Shown in pieces: positions 44,900 through 49,925 of a stretch of DNA of 50,483 nucleotides (the first letter of the stretch is position 1; each line of letters starts with the position of its first letter). A model generated the notes under the pieces. The model searched no databases, was not told the DNA's origin, and saw nothing but the letters and a program-made list of their open reading frames with translations. Both the position numbers and the translations under genes were made by a program. Source of the stretch: Streptomyces aureus (GTDB lineage Bacteria; Actinomycetota; Actinomycetes; Streptomycetales; Streptomycetaceae); the NCBI RefSeq assembly GCF_001418135.1, contig NZ_LIPQ01000004.1, positions 1 through 50,483 on the forward strand. The letters are read 5' to 3'.

Positions 44900-45085
44900 T
44901 GCGGCATGGAGCATGGACCATGGCGATCGTTTCGGGGTGGGGCCCGGCCGGCGCCCATTCAAGCGAGAAGCGGCCCGTGCCGTGGTCTTCGCGGAGACCG
45001 GGGTCGCCACCGTAGGCGAGAAGTGCATGCACCGTCTCGGTATGGCCTCAGCACGCAGCCGCGCACAGGGGTGTGCCTTCCGCGC
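44900..45085 (-). pseudogene. ankyrin-repeat protein fragment with nonsense codon
   Basis: The minus strand reads GAEGTPLCAAAC, a TGA where Trp is expected, then GHTETVHALLAYGGDPGLRE, DHGTGRFSLEWA and GPHPETIAMV. This is the ankyrin pattern (GxTPLcxAaxxGHxexVraLLaxGADPxxre). About two repeats remain and no start is present. Confidence 0.6.
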
Positions 45086-45154
45086 CGCGTCCGCGCTGCT
45101 GTTGTGATGGGCAAGGTGGCCGCGTTGGGTGGTTCCAGGAGGCCTGGGGGTTTC

Positions 45155-45466
45155 TCACGGACGGTCGGCGGCAGGTCGGTCTGGTGGTGCTGAGTCATCG
45201 GCCCGTCGGATGCGGATCGGGCCTCGGGCCTTGCCTGGTGCAATCGGATGTCCGCGCTGAGTGATCTCCACCTCTCCCTCGTCGACCAGGTGGCGGGCCG
45301 CGAGGCGGGCAGGCTCCATCAGGGCACGCCAGCCGTCGTCGTCCCCTTGGTACGCGGCGCGCGCCGCGTCCGACGGGCAGATCGACGCGCCGGGAGCGCG
45401 GCGCTGCAGGAGCTTCAGGATCGTTTGCTCCAGGCGCCGAACCGTCTCCCTCCCGGTTTCCGTCAT
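45155..45466 (-). CDS. DUF3253 domain protein
   Basis: A 103-residue protein with the DUF3253 winged-helix-like pattern: LEQTILKLLQRRAPGASICP, SDAARAAYQGDDDGWRALME, PARLAARHLVDEGEVEITQR and GHPIAPGKARGPIRIRRA. The phrase SICPSDAARA is the hallmark. Function unknown; a DNA-binding fold is possible. ATG at 45466 has GGAG nine bases upstream. The last 13 residues are an Asp/Pro-rich tail. It is divergent from the peptide-oxygenase operon. Confidence 0.87.
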   Translation of the reverse strand: MTETGRETVRRLEQTILKLLQRRAPGASICPSDAARAAYQGDDDGWRALMEPARLAARHLVDEGEVEITQRGHPIAPGKARGPIRIRRADDSAPPDRPAADRP

Positions 45467-45768
45467 CTGTCCAGTCTCCACGATTCGCTGGATTCCACGC
45501 CTGTCCGGTGTTGACCACTGGCCCCGTTTGGACGCCCGGCGTCCTCTTGCCCGATGCGCGGCGGAGAATCGGATCGACAGAGTCGCAGCCTCGTACGCGC
45601 GCGGCGCGTCGCCGCACGGAGATCGTCGGTGCGGCGACGGAGAAGCCACCACGCGGCGTTCACGTGCGCCGCTGCTCCGGTTGCCCCTCTTACCCGGGTG
45701 GGTGAGCTTGTATAAGGGGCCCGCACAGGACCGCCCCTCACCGATCGTCCCTATTCCCAGGAGGAGAC
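45467..45768. promoter_or_regulatory. divergent promoter region of DUF3253 and the peptide operon
   Basis: About 300 bases between two divergent genes. TATAAG at 45711-45716 is a possible -10 box for the peptide operon; no -35 box sits at 17 bases. AGGAGGAGAC just before 45769 is a very strong ribosome binding site. No gene lies between. Confidence 0.4.
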
Positions 45769-46095
45769 ATGGCGCACTCCGAGCAGGACCCGAACCAGCA
45801 GGAAGGTCCGGCGGACGGTGGCGCTGTCGGCACACCCGGCGTCCACGACGGGGGTGCGGACGGCGGAGCGGACGGCGGAGCCGACAGCGGTGCCGACGGA
45901 GGTGCGGACAGCGGTGCCGACGGAGGCGCCGACGGAGGTGCGGACAGCGGTGCCGACGGAGGCGCGGACAGTGGAGCGGACGGAGGCGCCGACAGCGGTG
46001 CGGAAGGCCCCGCTGACGGTGGCGCGGCCGGCGCCCCCGGCGTACACGACGGCGGTGCCGACGGCGGTGCCGAAGAGGCCGGCGGCCGCCTTTGA
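45769..46095 (+). CDS. Gly/Ala/Asp repeat peptide, 108 aa, candidate RiPP-like precursor
   Basis: The sequence is almost wholly GGAD and SGAD units. A short leader-like start, MAHSEQDPNQQEGPADGG, has few repeats. The segment GPADGGA-x-G-x-PGVHDGGADGGA occurs twice, near residues 13-34 and 80-101, and brackets a core of about 45 residues of alternating DGGA/DSGA units. It ends EEAGGRL. There is no signal peptide. The ribosome binding site AGGAGGAGAC is very strong. The stop TGA overlaps the TTG start of the oxygenase gene by four bases. High expression next to a JmjC-type enzyme suggests it is the substrate, with the many Asp residues as targets; this is inference. It could instead be a structural or metal-binding protein. 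Confidence 0.75.
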   Translation: MAHSEQDPNQQEGPADGGAVGTPGVHDGGADGGADGGADSGADGGADSGADGGADGGADSGADGGADSGADGGADSGAEGPADGGAAGAPGVHDGGADGGAEEAGGRL

Positions 46096-47300
46096 GCACC
46101 GTTCCCACGACACTTCGGGACACGGCCGACGACGTCGACGGCCGTGTCCTGGAGACACGTCTGATCCGACTCAGCCGCGAGAAGTTCGCTCGGGACGTCT
46201 GGGGGCGCACCCCGCTGCTCACGCGCGGAGCCGGTGACTTCTCCGACCTGTTCTCAGCAGCCTCGGTGGACGAGCTGATCTCCCGACGCGGCCTGCGGAC
46301 GCCGTTCCTCCGCGTCGCCAAGGACGGCTCCACCGCACCCGAGTCGTCGTTCACCTCCCCGGGCGGAGTCGGTGCGTCGGTCGGGGACCAACTGGACGAC
46401 ACCGCGGTGTGGCGGAGCTTCGCCGACGGCAGCACCCTGGTGCTGCAGGCGCTGCAGCGGACCTGGGGGCCGATCACGGACTTCGCGACGCGGCTCGGCA
46501 CGGAGCTGGGCCACCCCGTCCAGGCCAACGCCTATGTCACCCCGCCGCAGAGCCGCGGTTTCGACGACCACTACGACGTCCACGACGTCTTCGTCCTGCA
46601 GATCACCGGTACCAAGCGCTGGATCATCCACCAGCCCGTGCACCCGGCGCCGCTGCGCGACGAGCCCTGGACGGAGCACCGCGCCGCGGTCGCCGGTGCC
46701 GCCCGCCGAGGAGAGGCGTACATCGACACCCTGCTCGGGCCGGGCGACGTCCTCTATCTGCCGCGCGGCTGGCTGCACGCCGCCGAAGCCCAGGGCGCCG
46801 TGTCGATCCATCTGACGCTCGGCGTTCACACCTGGACGCGGCACGCGTTGGCCGAGCAACTCGTGCAGTCCGCCTTGGAGCTGCTGCGCGAGGACCCCGA
46901 GATGCGCCGATCCCTCCCCCTGGGCGTGGACGGACCGGGCGCAGAACTCGCGGTCGTACGCCGACGTCTCCTCGCCGCGGTCGCCGAGGCGGACCCCGCT
47001 CCCCTGTTCCACCGCGCCCGCCGCGGCCAAGCACGCCCGGCGCCCCTGGGGCCGCTGGAACAACTCGGGGCTCTCGACGGACTCGGGCCCGGCACAGCGG
47101 TCCGGCTTCGTGAGGCGTTGGAACCACGCCTGGAGGGCCGGCGCCTCGCCACCCGCGTCGGGTGGCTCGACTTCCCGGAGAGGGACCTGCCGTCGGTGCT
47201 CCGGATCCTCGACGGGAGCGCCCGTCCTGCCGGCGAGCTCGGTCTGCCCTTCGTCGAGCGGCTGCTGCGCGCGGGCGTGCTGGTGCCTGCCGAGCCGTGA
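46092..47300 (+). CDS. JmjC/cupin-4 domain 2-oxoglutarate oxygenase
   Basis: A 402-residue protein of the cupin-4 (ribosomal oxygenase, YcfD/NO66-like) group, Fe(II)/2-oxoglutarate enzymes that hydroxylate residues in proteins. The N-terminus has SREKFARDVWGRTPLLTRGA, and VQANAYVTPPQSRGFDDHYD precedes the metal site. Ligands are H160-x-D162 and H229 in GDVLYLPRGWLHAAEA; Lys175 in GTKRW may hold 2-oxoglutarate. A C-terminal dimer/winged-helix part (ALEPRLEGRRLATRVGWLDF, FVERLLRAGVLVP) completes the layout. The TTG start overlaps the peptide's stop (TTGA). A weak start after a strong one would give more peptide than enzyme. Confidence 0.88.
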   Translation: MSTVPTTLRDTADDVDGRVLETRLIRLSREKFARDVWGRTPLLTRGAGDFSDLFSAASVDELISRRGLRTPFLRVAKDGSTAPESSFTSPGGVGASVGDQLDDTAVWRSFADGSTLVLQALQRTWGPITDFATRLGTELGHPVQANAYVTPPQSRGFDDHYDVHDVFVLQITGTKRWIIHQPVHPAPLRDEPWTEHRAAVAGAARRGEAYIDTLLGPGDVLYLPRGWLHAAEAQGAVSIHLTLGVHTWTRHALAEQLVQSALELLREDPEMRRSLPLGVDGPGAELAVVRRRLLAAVAEADPAPLFHRARRGQARPAPLGPLEQLGALDGLGPGTAVRLREALEPRLEGRRLATRVGWLDFPERDLPSVLRILDGSARPAGELGLPFVERLLRAGVLVPAEP

Positions 47301-47310
47301 GACGGTCGGC

Positions 47311-48207
47311 ATGACGACGCCGGCGCGTTTCTTCTGCGCCGATGCCGCCCGCCTGCGCGGCGACCCGCTCGCGGGCACGGCGCCGTACGGCTCGGTCTGG
47401 ATCCTCATCGAGTACCGGGCCGGCTGGCCGGTCAACGGCTTCGACGGCCTCCCTCTTGATCCCGAGGCCAAGGCACGGGTGTACGCCGCCGCGCGGGCGG
47501 CACGCGCCCGCGTCCTGCTCATCAGACGCCATGGCCGCGGTCGGCCGGACGAACCGCCGCGGTGGGCCGTTCTGCGGTACGAGAAGGACGGAGCCCACCG
47601 TCAGGAGTGGGGCACCTGGCACGACGACGGGGATCTGGCGCAGATCGTCGACGCCCTGGACGCGCCCGGGGAACGAGGCCGGCCGCCCGTCGTCCTCGTC
47701 TGCGCCCACGGCCTGCACGACACCTGTTGCGCCGTCCGCGGCCGTCCGGTGGCGCGTGCGCTGAGTGACCGCTGGCCGCAGCTGGTGTGGGAGTGCACGC
47801 ATGTGGGAGGGGACCGGTTCGCCGCCAATGTGGTCGTCGCGCCCGACGGCGTGTACTACGGGAACCTCGACGCCCTCTCGGCGGTCACGGTGGTCGAGGA
47901 GCACTTGGCGGACCGAGTCCACCCGGACCACCTGCGCGGGTACACGGACCTCGTCCCGCCCCAGCAGGCCGCCCTGTCCGCTGTGCTCCGCCACGCGGGC
48001 CCGTCGGGTCGGCACGACTACGTCATCGAGGAGACGGTCCGGGACGGTGATCGGTGGCGGATGCGCGTCACCGGGCGCCTCGCCGGTCTGTCCGCCTTCG
48101 AGGTCGAGATCCACGCCCATCGGGCGCAGCCGCACCAACTGACCTGCCGCGGCCTGTCCCTCAGCTCGGCGGTGCACTACGAGGTCGCGTCCCTTCGCGT
48201 CGGGTGA
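47311..48207 (+). CDS. sucrase/ferredoxin-like family protein
   Basis: A 298-residue protein with a thioredoxin-fold [2Fe-2S] ferredoxin-like domain. Family marks are FFCADAARLRGDPLAGTAPY near residues 8-26 (Cys9), VVLVCAHGLHDTCCAVRGRP with Cys131, Cys139 and Cys140, ECTHVGGDRFAANVVVAPDG, and GVYYGNLDALSAVTVVEEHL. These give the usual cluster ligands plus a conserved His. A C-terminal part of about 60 residues follows. It starts 10 bases after the oxygenase stop and so belongs to the operon. It could supply electrons or act on iron for the oxygenase, but this is a guess. Many homologues have no known role. Confidence 0.85.
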   Translation: MTTPARFFCADAARLRGDPLAGTAPYGSVWILIEYRAGWPVNGFDGLPLDPEAKARVYAAARAARARVLLIRRHGRGRPDEPPRWAVLRYEKDGAHRQEWGTWHDDGDLAQIVDALDAPGERGRPPVVLVCAHGLHDTCCAVRGRPVARALSDRWPQLVWECTHVGGDRFAANVVVAPDGVYYGNLDALSAVTVVEEHLADRVHPDHLRGYTDLVPPQQAALSAVLRHAGPSGRHDYVIEETVRDGDRWRMRVTGRLAGLSAFEVEIHAHRAQPHQLTCRGLSLSSAVHYEVASLRVG

Positions 48208-48776
48208 CGGTATTCCTGCCCCCGTGGGCTGGGGCTTGATAGACGTGGGTCCGTGGAAGGTTGGTTTCCAGGTGCGGGATGACGCCCGGGCGCCCTCCCC
48301 CGCACCCGTCGAGGGTCGCTTCGGTGGAGGGTGTCGGCATCCGACGTGAGGTTGGCGCGTGTCTCGACCTCGTACGTCCCGGTCCGGCAGGGCGAAGGTC
48401 ACGGTCCAGGCCGACTCTCCACGCACCGAGCCGGGTCCTCAGCGGTCCAGCTGTACTGCTCGCACGACCACAGTCCCACGTCGATGCCCGCGTCCTCGCA
48501 CCGCTGGACACCCTGGTCCTACACGATGTCGAGCACCGACCCGACCGGTAGTCCACCAGGTCGCGTCAGACCGTCCAGACCCGCTCGGGGTCGCTCAGCC
48601 GCGTGACGGCGGGCCGCGTGACGGCGGGCGGCGCACAGCCCCCGACCGGGTGCGCCGCCCACCCCGAGTCACCCATGGATGTTGCGTTCCGGCACGGGAT
48701 GCCCATCGCGTTTCAGGACGGTCCGCTCGGGAAGCCGCCATCACAACGGACGACTTCCCCGACGGGAGCTAGGCCG
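48208..48776. other. non-coding stretch
   Basis: No gene recognised. Near 48601-48627 GCGTGACGGCGGGC occurs twice in tandem. The last part is the leader of the membrane gene at 48777. Confidence 0.4.
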
Positions 48777-49337
48777 ATGTCAACAGGAACAATTCTGGCC
48801 ATCGTCATATCCGCTGTGGTGCTGATCGCGCTGATCGCCGTGGCGGTGACCCTCAGCATGCGTCGCCGACGTCGTCTTCGTGAGCAGTTCGGGCCGGAGT
48901 ACGACCGCACGGTCGAGGACGCCGGGAGCCGACGAGCCGCCGAACAGGAGCTGGGCGCCCGCGAGGAGCGCCATGAAGCCTTGGACATCAAACCGCTGTC
49001 GAGTCAGCAGAGGGAGAGGTACGCCCAGGAGTGGCGCGGAGTCCAGGAGGAGTTCGTGGACCGCCCTGAGGGCGCGGTGCACGACGCGGACCAGCTCGTC
49101 ACTTCCCTGATGCACGAGCGGGGCTATCCCACCGAGGGCTTCGAGCAGCAGGCAAAGGATCTCTCCGTCGAACACGGGCGCACGCTGGAGCACTACTGGG
49201 CGGCCCACGAGATCAACACGCTCAGCACCACCCAGCGGGCCACCACCGAGCAGCTGCGGGGAGCCATGGTGCACTACCGGGCTCTCTTCGACGAACTCCT
49301 CACCAACGGAAGCTCGGCCGGTCCCGGCCGGAGCTGA
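48777..49337 (+). CDS. membrane-anchored protein sharing a domain with the next gene
   Basis: A 186-residue protein. One N-terminal membrane helix, GTILAIVISAVVLIALIAVA, is followed by basic residues (RRRRRLREQFG), so the rest lies in the cytoplasm. The body is helical: EYDRTVEDAGSRRAAEQELG, LSSQQRERYAQEWRGVQEEF, VDRPEGAVHDADQLVTSLMH and TEQLRGAMVHYRALFDELL. The segment WxxVQxxFVDxPxxAVHxADxLVxxxM occurs again in the next gene. ATG at 48777 has GGGAG nine bases upstream. Similar proteins are common in actinobacteria and their role is not known. Confidence 0.8.
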   Translation: MSTGTILAIVISAVVLIALIAVAVTLSMRRRRRLREQFGPEYDRTVEDAGSRRAAEQELGAREERHEALDIKPLSSQQRERYAQEWRGVQEEFVDRPEGAVHDADQLVTSLMHERGYPTEGFEQQAKDLSVEHGRTLEHYWAAHEINTLSTTQRATTEQLRGAMVHYRALFDELLTNGSSAGPGRS

Positions 49338-49352
49338 GAGGGAAGGCGCGTC

Positions 49353-49925
49353 ATGCGCGAGCGTGAGACACCGTCGCGGGCCGCGAGCGGCCTGTCGACC
49401 GAGGACATCGCCCAGCGGACCGGTCGCGGTACGGAAGAGGAGACCCGTCGCGACACGCAGGAGGATCGGTGGGAACAGGACCGGGAGCGTGACGGCGCCG
49501 CTCGGAACGCACCCGTGTACCCCGGGGAGAGCACTGCGGTCGGTGACACCACAGACGCCGGTGAGGAGCCGGAAAGCAGCGCTTCCGCATCGGGGACGCG
49601 GACGGACGCGGAGCCGGGCGGGGACGAGCCTGCCACGGAAGAGCAGGCCGACCACTCGGCCCGCCTGCTGGACAGTGACGACGACGCGTCGTTCCGTGCG
49701 CGGTGGAGCGACATCCAGAGCATGTTCGTCGACGATCCTCGGGAAGCCGTTCACGCGGCCGACGCGCTGGTCGCCGATGTGATGCAACAGCTCGCCACCA
49801 CCTTCGCCGACCACAAGAGGAATCTCGAAGGGCAGTGGGGCGAGGACGACCGCGTCGACACGGAGAGCCTGCGGGTGGCCCTTCGTCAGTACCGGTCCTT
49901 CTTCAACCGGCTCCTCTCCCGATGA
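49353..49925 (+). CDS. soluble paralogue of the preceding protein
   Basis: A 190-residue protein with a long acidic, disordered N-terminus (EEPESSASASGTRTDAEPGG) and a C-terminal helical domain, FRARWSDIQSMFVDDPREAV, HAADALVADVMQQLATTFAD and ESLRVALRQYRSFFNRLL. The last 90 residues match the last part of the preceding protein, but there is no membrane helix. It starts 15 bases after it, with GAGAGGGAAGG upstream, so the two form an operon. An interaction between the membrane and soluble forms is plausible. Confidence 0.8.
   Translation: MRERETPSRAASGLSTEDIAQRTGRGTEEETRRDTQEDRWEQDRERDGAARNAPVYPGESTAVGDTTDAGEEPESSASASGTRTDAEPGGDEPATEEQADHSARLLDSDDDASFRARWSDIQSMFVDDPREAVHAADALVADVMQQLATTFADHKRNLEGQWGEDDRVDTESLRVALRQYRSFFNRLLSR

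Follow-up and report, generated by a model that had tools for sequence, protein, structure and literature searches.

In a stretch of Streptomyces aureus DNA of 50,483 nucleotides (nt) (assembly GCF_001418135.1, contig NZ_LIPQ01000004.1, positions 1 to 50,483 of the forward strand; hereafter the window), we found three adjacent genes, the first two of which recur as a pair over 20 sampled families, mostly with the third: one for a repetitive Asp-rich peptide, one for a JmjC_2 oxygenase of the ROX type, dependent on Fe(II) and 2-oxoglutarate (2OG), and one for a Suc_Fer-like protein. Comparison of the sequences suggests a translationally coupled cassette resembling those for ribosomally synthesized and post-translationally modified peptides (RiPPs), in which the ROX-type enzyme would hydroxylate many Asp residues of one repetitive substrate; we give this reading a probability of roughly 0.58.

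The layout described in the original prediction was borne out when the locus was read directly. The peptide of 108 residues, built of GGAD and SGAD units, begins four bases after a strong AGGAGG ribosome site, its stop codon TGA shares bases with the TTG start of the cupin-4/JmjC oxygenase gene in the sequence TTGA (at 46092), and the predicted sucrase/ferredoxin-like gene follows after 10 nt. Two details needed adjustment. The repeat is indeed Asp-rich, with 18 Asp codons, one of them inside the N-terminal stretch, slightly fewer than the "about 20" expected; and the direct repeat said to bracket the peptide is present in two copies, which are better described as the 23-residue unit of a wider family occurring twice, with the GGAD/SGAD expansion between. 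The second and third proteins of the trio are the sole matches to PF08007 and PF06999, respectively, in a Pfam search of the 7.9-Mb genome.

Conservation of the three genes

The original prediction would have been refuted had homologous oxygenase genes lacked a nearby repeat peptide in almost every genome; instead, the trio proved to be conserved. Among the best 80 of 138 relatives from a GTDB genome scan, best-segment identity ranged from 62 to 90%, and the hosts included Streptomyces, Arthrobacter and its relatives, Kocuria, Flexivirga, Nakamurella, Brachybacterium, Aeromicrobium and a metagenome-assembled genome of the Propionibacteriales. Within the genus, 35 of 392 genomes (G000 included) carried close matches, with identities from about 68% upwards; in four the match was split or partial, and the group stood apart from paralogs at 30-40%. 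Removal of 17 duplicates from 111 loci left 94 distinct orthologs, the window's own included; the repeat peptide lay directly upstream of the oxygenase in 93, and at the remaining one, L037, the contig begins inside the peptide. The peptide ended in TTGA at 66 of the 94 loci, and the extrapolated enzyme start overlapped it by four bases in 56 of 93; most of 101 stretches preceding the peptide contained an AGGAGG-like site. A Suc_Fer gene lay 3' of the enzyme at 104 of 106 loci (the 94 orthologs and 12 further loci), the exceptions being L112, whose contig ends 38 bases after the enzyme, and L144, which is truly without it.

A profile built from 55 orthologs and run on 394 genomes of the class matched 79 of them, 63 at 248 bits or more and 16 at 185 bits or less. 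In all 63 genomes of the higher group a small open reading frame (ORF) in which Asp made up 12% or more and Arg plus Lys 6% or less ended at the enzyme start; the same test, applied at 1154 control positions elsewhere in these loci, gave a single positive. This is the arrangement of RiPP cassettes, in which a precursor gene is encoded with its modifying enzyme. Three or more DGGA, DSGA, DGTA or DGSA units occurred in 58 of the 63 peptides, the least typical being those of G642 and G468 (Asp-rich, non-repeated), G739, G412 and G568; the start codons chosen by the survey script were sometimes internal, and it saw no ribosome site for three of the 63. A Suc_Fer gene was adjacent in 52. The peptide motif led to the same enzyme from the other direction: GPADGGAxG had matches in 91 of the same 394 genomes, many of them single and scattered, and of 20 places fetched after this search, 11 picked for a repeated motif and nine as distant JmjC_2 loci, all 11 of the former had an oxygenase relative, of 48-69% identity, encoded next to the peptide. 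Among the matches listed, 18 genomes held two or more copies of the motif inside 300 nt; 17 of these carry the oxygenase, and in the last, G223, the match comes from a 25-nt repeat in which the frame shifts.

Nine loci (L223-L231) were examined from among the 16 lower-scoring matches. L224-L226 and L228-L230 each had a Suc_Fer gene together with an Asp-rich peptide of the DADGTDGDST type or similar; no Asp-rich peptide was found at L223 and L231. A sample of 246 genomes from the phylum gave 15 matches at E 1e-60; six, with scores of 212-237 bits, came from outside the class. All six had an Asp-rich frame upstream and a Suc_Fer gene in the same gene order, with other Asp-rich cores and, in most, a DEDI(V/E)T-like start; the rule used saw no ribosome site in three of the six, and at L272 part of that region is masked.

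The type of peptide core also goes with the enzyme clade. In a quick tree of 142 enzymes, for which the program warned of long branches and open forks, 102 rows labelled GGAD (L252 and L253 were so counted although their peptides are non-repeating) fell on one side of a branch with support 96, and six DxD rows fell on one side of another with support 100; the core labels required 6 changes, compared with a mean of 37.8 after shuffling. None of nine distant JmjC_2 loci (30-41% identity) had a GGAD-type peptide, five of them carrying other small acidic peptides, and none of 20 further distant Streptomyces JmjC_2 places had such an Asp-rich peptide by the filter used, so that an Asp-rich peptide is not a general companion of JmjC_2 enzymes. 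One could suppose that the two are only co-regulated, the peptide being an acidic disordered protein with a function of its own (a hydrophilin or metal buffer) and the oxygenase having another target such as a ribosomal protein. The composition of the peptide is that of a soluble disordered protein, as this supposition would have it, and ROX enzymes elsewhere modify ribosomal proteins (from structure titles). The strict pairing, the agreement of core type with enzyme clade, and the distant enzymes that lack such a peptide make it very improbable, and the presence of a dedicated peptide itself argues for a substrate other than a ribosomal protein. The simplest role for a dedicated 2OG oxygenase with a repetitive peptide encoded beside it is to act on that peptide, which we consider very probably the substrate.

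The peptide as a gene and a repeat family

With a tandem 12-nt repeat in GC-rich DNA, and with many antisense and alternative frames open at this locus, the peptide frame could be a low-complexity artefact and no gene at all. Across 106 loci, adjacent four-residue units differed by 1793 synonymous and 239 non-synonymous changes, a synonymous fraction of 0.88 compared with 0.27 expected for random changes (25 and 9, respectively, in the window peptide alone), showing that the protein sequence is under selection. This result, together with the ribosome sites that precede the peptide frames and the conservation of the peptide over 20 families, leaves the artefact with practically no likelihood. 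The degenerate pattern AD[G/S]GAD[G/S]GA had 11 matches in the 7.9-Mb genome, all within the peptide gene, and the reversed pattern, used as a control, had none. TRF found periods of 12, 24 and 60 nt in the gene.

The repeat unit of the family is EGPADGGAAGTPGVHDGGADGGA. In a first count 145 of 315 units were identical to it; as the search pattern itself had fixed G2, P3, A8, G10, G13, G17, G18 and D or H at 16, the positions were recounted with G2, P3 and A4 alone fixed, which gave 329 units from the 106 loci. Asp was nearly constant at three positions (D5 in 329, D16 in 318, D20 in 320), as were A8 (329), G7 (328) and G10 (327), and His occurred at position 15 in 273. Peptides held a median of 16 Asp (range 3-33, the lowest being the truncated L037) and of 3 His (range 0-9). 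Cys and Trp were absent from all 106, ruling out Cys-based metal binding. The peptide had no Pfam match at E 0.1, and its likeness to the Sdr/Clf (MSCRAMM) adhesins was compositional only (13-18 bits against cut-offs of 999-2500), so that this identity was rejected.

The oxygenase and its target residue

The intact HxD...H ligands claimed for the oxygenase were confirmed. It matched PF08007 with 94.5 bits (cut-off 22), H160, D162 and H229 were invariant in the 55 aligned orthologs, and these three together with K175 were invariant in all six groups aligned. The counterpart of K175 in NO66 is the Lys that binds 2OG. NO66 was the closest solved relative by sequence profile and by predicted fold (Foldseek 4.7e-24; 364 residues aligned at an rmsd of 8.7, model residues 8-402), followed by MINA53 and YcfD, and by this alignment the JmjC core, the helical region and the C-terminal winged-helix region all appear to be present. 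Given the mean pLDDT of 77.8, the pTM of 0.69 and the rmsd, the packing of the domains in the model is uncertain.

These relatives bear on the question of which residue is changed, for NO66 and MINA53 are histidyl hydroxylases, and a like enzyme might modify the His of GVHDGG, Asp and Gly serving merely as recognition context. His is indeed present in 273 of the 329 units. It is replaced by Gln in 33, Ser in 9 and others in the rest, however, and is absent from the GGAD expansions, from the DxD cores and from 10 of the 63 survey peptides as called by the script; moreover, R297 and S421 of NO66, its His contacts, align with V117 and G244 of the oxygenase. A His target therefore seems quite improbable to us. 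Asp is the one residue with a reactive side chain that is prominent in all cores, and since the neighbouring His is replaceable, comparison favours Asp as the target; we regard it as the residue probably changed, and hydroxylation at multiple Asp sites as the best guess.

The outcome might also be some other oxidation of the Asp-rich peptide, such as cross-linking, oxidative decarboxylation, formation of aminomalonate or backbone cleavage between repeats. There is precedent for several of these: PMC12636437 describes backbone cleavage by a RiPP 2OG enzyme, PMC13097080 cites SmaO/SmaX as converting Asp to aminomalonate, and macrocyclisation by a RiPP 2OG enzyme is named in a paper title. ROX relatives with solved structures are hydroxylases, though, and the data point to no particular alternative outcome, so that another oxidation is unlikely.

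Three residues distinguish the enzymes of the Asp-repeat clades, in which R69 and R123 occurred in 111 of 111 and Q119 in 110, from 25 distant Streptomyces JmjC_2 enzymes, in which they occurred in 10, 5 and 2, respectively; at six distant loci with other acidic peptides the numbers were 4 for R69, 1 for R123 and 0 for Q119. R74 does not discriminate, being present also in 24 of the 25. Q119 aligns opposite L299 of NO66 (wild-type and L299C/C300S chains compared), a residue mutated in the substrate complex 4ccn according to structure titles. The contrast in these residues could be explained by shared descent alone. At its C terminus the model has strands at residues 346-348, 351-354 and 357-360, preceded by an extra strand at 336-339, and then helices at 363-372, 380-383 and 385-394; judged by the order of its predicted elements, this domain has the bbb-aaa winged-helix order by which the RiPP recognition element (RRE) is defined (PMC12710340).

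The Suc_Fer-like protein

The third protein matched PF06999 with 64.1 bits (cut-off 34.9), and its model (pLDDT 92.6) had thioredoxin-like [2Fe-2S] ferredoxins as its top seven fold matches (E 0.004-0.025, about 90 columns); support for a ferredoxin at the sequence level was weak (E 0.003). C131, C139, C140, H164 and D168 were invariant in 36 Suc_Fer proteins. The corresponding motif of yeast Apd1 is HxGGH. The cassette proteins do not have this bis-His motif and carry HxGGD instead, with Asp (D168) in 104 of 104, which suggests an unusual set of [2Fe-2S] ligands with D168 in place of the second His.

Proposed mechanism

From what was observed directly (gene order, conservation, selection on the peptide and the catalytic ligands) and from the predicted folds, we propose the following sequence of events. 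The strong ribosome site would cause the peptide to be made in excess, and the overlapping TTG start could keep the level of the enzyme below that of its substrate. The oxygenase would recognize the peptide, for which its RRE-like C-terminal winged helix may serve, and would use Fe(II), O2 and 2OG to hydroxylate the side chains of many Asp residues; the likeliest position is the beta carbon, which is the usual site for related JmjC enzymes. The Suc_Fer-like protein may be an electron-transfer helper that keeps the iron of the oxygenase reduced or acts on the product, a role we put forward tentatively and at somewhat less than even odds. Beta-hydroxyaspartate is an Fe(III) ligand of siderophores, which leads to the idea that the product binds metal; we consider this doubtful. 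More speculative still is the fuller picture of widespread actinobacterial poly-(beta-hydroxyaspartyl) peptides made on the ribosome, genetically encoded hydroxylated polymers that would bind Fe(III) or Ca2+ with the Suc_Fer protein as a redox partner in iron handling. In that picture, itself rather unlikely, one ROX-type oxygenase would process tens of Asp residues on a tandem-repeat substrate of variable length.

Several observations weigh against multi-site Asp hydroxylation in a RiPP-like cassette. The nearest characterized enzymes act on His. In the close family the unit's Gly, Ala and Pro residues are conserved to the same degree as Asp, so that Asp is set apart solely by the more distant cores. 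The peptides of L252 and L253 are Asp-rich and show no repetition. A DDDITT-like start, by a strict pattern, occurred in 31 of the 63 survey peptides, none of them from Streptomyces, whose peptides begin differently (for example, MTSPEQDPNQQ). The Suc_Fer gene was missing in 11 of the 63 survey genomes, two of which (G448 and G623) have less than 1.6 kb before the contig end; it is dispensable in some lineages. No protease or exporter was conserved beside the trio among flanking ORFs of at least 100 residues at 32 representative loci, which is unusual for a RiPP. On balance, the genomic half of the original interpretation is strongly supported, the trio being conserved and the peptide tracking the enzyme clade; repeated modification of Asp is favoured by comparison.

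Features of the locus and its surroundings

The coordinates of the features are collected in Table 1. In flanks of up to about 4 kb (shorter for some of the 32 representatives), no ORF of at least 100 residues outside the trio, antisense frames excluded, was common to three loci, which indicates that the three genes are kept, or move, together. Matching plasmid records numbered 113, every one below 60% identity, so that no annotated plasmid copy was available to supply names.

Table 1. Positions in the window of the cassette genes and of sites within them
Feature	Position	Strand	Basis
AGGAGG ribosome site of peptide gene	45759..45764	+	Read directly from sequence
Repeat peptide gene, 108 residues, ATG start; putative precursor/substrate	45769..46095	+	ORF and homologs
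Peptide N-terminal 11 residues, MAHSEQDPNQQ; possible leader	45769..45801	+	PEQDPNQQ-type starts in relatives
First 23-residue repeat unit, EGPADGGAVGTPGVHDGGADGGA	45802..45870	+	Read from ORF; family consensus
Eleven DGGA/DSGA units, 44 residues	45871..46002	+	Read from ORF; TRF
Second 23-residue repeat unit, EGPADGGAAGAPGVHDGGADGGA	46003..46071	+	Read from ORF; family consensus
JmjC_2/ROX-type Fe(II)/2OG oxygenase, 402 residues, TTG start	46092..47300	+	PF08007 4.8e-27; NO66 3.5e-29, Z 25.0
Metal ligands H160 and D162 (HxD)	46569..46577	+	Invariant in all groups aligned
K175, aligned with 2OG-binding Lys of NO66	46614..46616	+	Alignment
Third metal ligand H229	46776..46778	+	Alignment
Winged-helix region at oxygenase C terminus, residues 336-399; three helices after the strands, in RRE-like order	47097..47288	+	Model DSSP
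Suc_Fer-like thioredoxin-fold [2Fe-2S] protein, 298 residues (predicted fold)	47311..48207	+	PF06999 2.3e-17; fold matches

Rfam models at the gathering threshold had no match in 45000-48800, and defence-system models had none among the three proteins of the trio; the annotation "BatC" found no support. At Micrococcaceae loci and some from Streptomyces, the peptide gene is preceded by an imperfect inverted repeat, GGGCGGTGCC...GGATCGCCC (or CGGCGGTGCC...GGTACCGCCG), and, beside the ribosome site, by a TTCGAT-C-GGGAGGAA block; together these are a possible 5'-leader element. Downstream of the trio, at 48780-49925, lie ORFs of 185 residues (with a likely membrane anchor) and 190 residues (acidic), which share by eye a WxxxQxxFVDxPxxAVHxADxLV-like segment and have no Pfam match above cut-off.

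Small acidic peptides of other kinds precede the JmjC_2 gene at six of the distant loci (L156-L159, L161 and L227), with LxxDDI- or LxxDEI-type starts and D/N-rich ends, and with DNDPTDP repeats in L158, L159 and L161; they probably represent other precursor families. The distant JmjC_2 gene of L153 adjoins a frame that by eye resembles a SagB-type nitroreductase, and that of L223 adjoins one resembling a thiopeptide-type SpaB_C domain.

Comparison with known systems

Most of what is known of ROX oxygenases concerns the hydroxylation of ribosomal proteins. A large branch of the family in bacteria that had its own encoded peptide as substrate would be relevant to the origin of the family and to the functions of JmjC enzymes. 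In one survey of a class, substrate and enzyme were paired one-to-one over 20 families, yet the peptide is without a Pfam model; the natural variation in repeat number provides a ready series of substrates for the study of multi-site hydroxylation. The cassette was not described in the open-access literature searched, most subscription papers lying outside that search; neither the exact repeat strings nor the combination of cupin, Streptomyces and sucrase ferredoxin retrieved a paper there, and PF08007 with RiPP retrieved PMC12710340 only. PF08007 enzymes in RiPP-like contexts are thus already in print, and the Asp-repeat cassette looks undescribed.

The cassette enzyme resembles the ROX enzymes of PF08007 (NO66/RIOX1, MINA53/RIOX2 and YcfD) in profile, fold, HxD...H ligands and 2OG Lys; unlike them, it has its gene beside those for a dedicated repeat peptide and a Suc_Fer protein, and unlike NO66 it has V117 and G244 at the positions of the His contacts R297 and S421. 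The Suc_Fer-like protein shares with thioredoxin-like [2Fe-2S] ferredoxins and Apd1-type proteins the PF06999 match, the fold, the Cys pair and the HxGG motif, and differs from yeast Apd1 in the residue that follows that motif, Asp instead of His.

Among RiPP systems, the sections of PMC12710340 consulted describe fusions of RRE-like domains to PF08007 in fish and algae, with the closest bacterial JmjC homologs in RiPP-like contexts. Those enzymes share the bbb-aaa C-terminal domain with the cassette oxygenase, and neither an Asp-repeat peptide nor a trio with Suc_Fer is described in those sections. In biphenomycin-type clusters, by PMC12257519, the cupin-like PbsQ hydroxylates Orn (+15.99 Da) and BpmG is a predicted JmjC protein; these resemble the cassette in that a cupin/JmjC-type oxygenase is encoded with its precursor and, for PbsQ, in hydroxylation of a side chain, as proposed here, and they differ in target residue, in partner enzymes and in having a short, non-repetitive motif. 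Finally, the MNIO and HExxH RiPP enzymes, as PMC12636437 and PMC13060819 describe them, yield the same product as that proposed here, beta-hydroxyaspartate in a ribosomal peptide, whereas they belong to unrelated enzyme families and act at one or a few sites rather than on many repeats.

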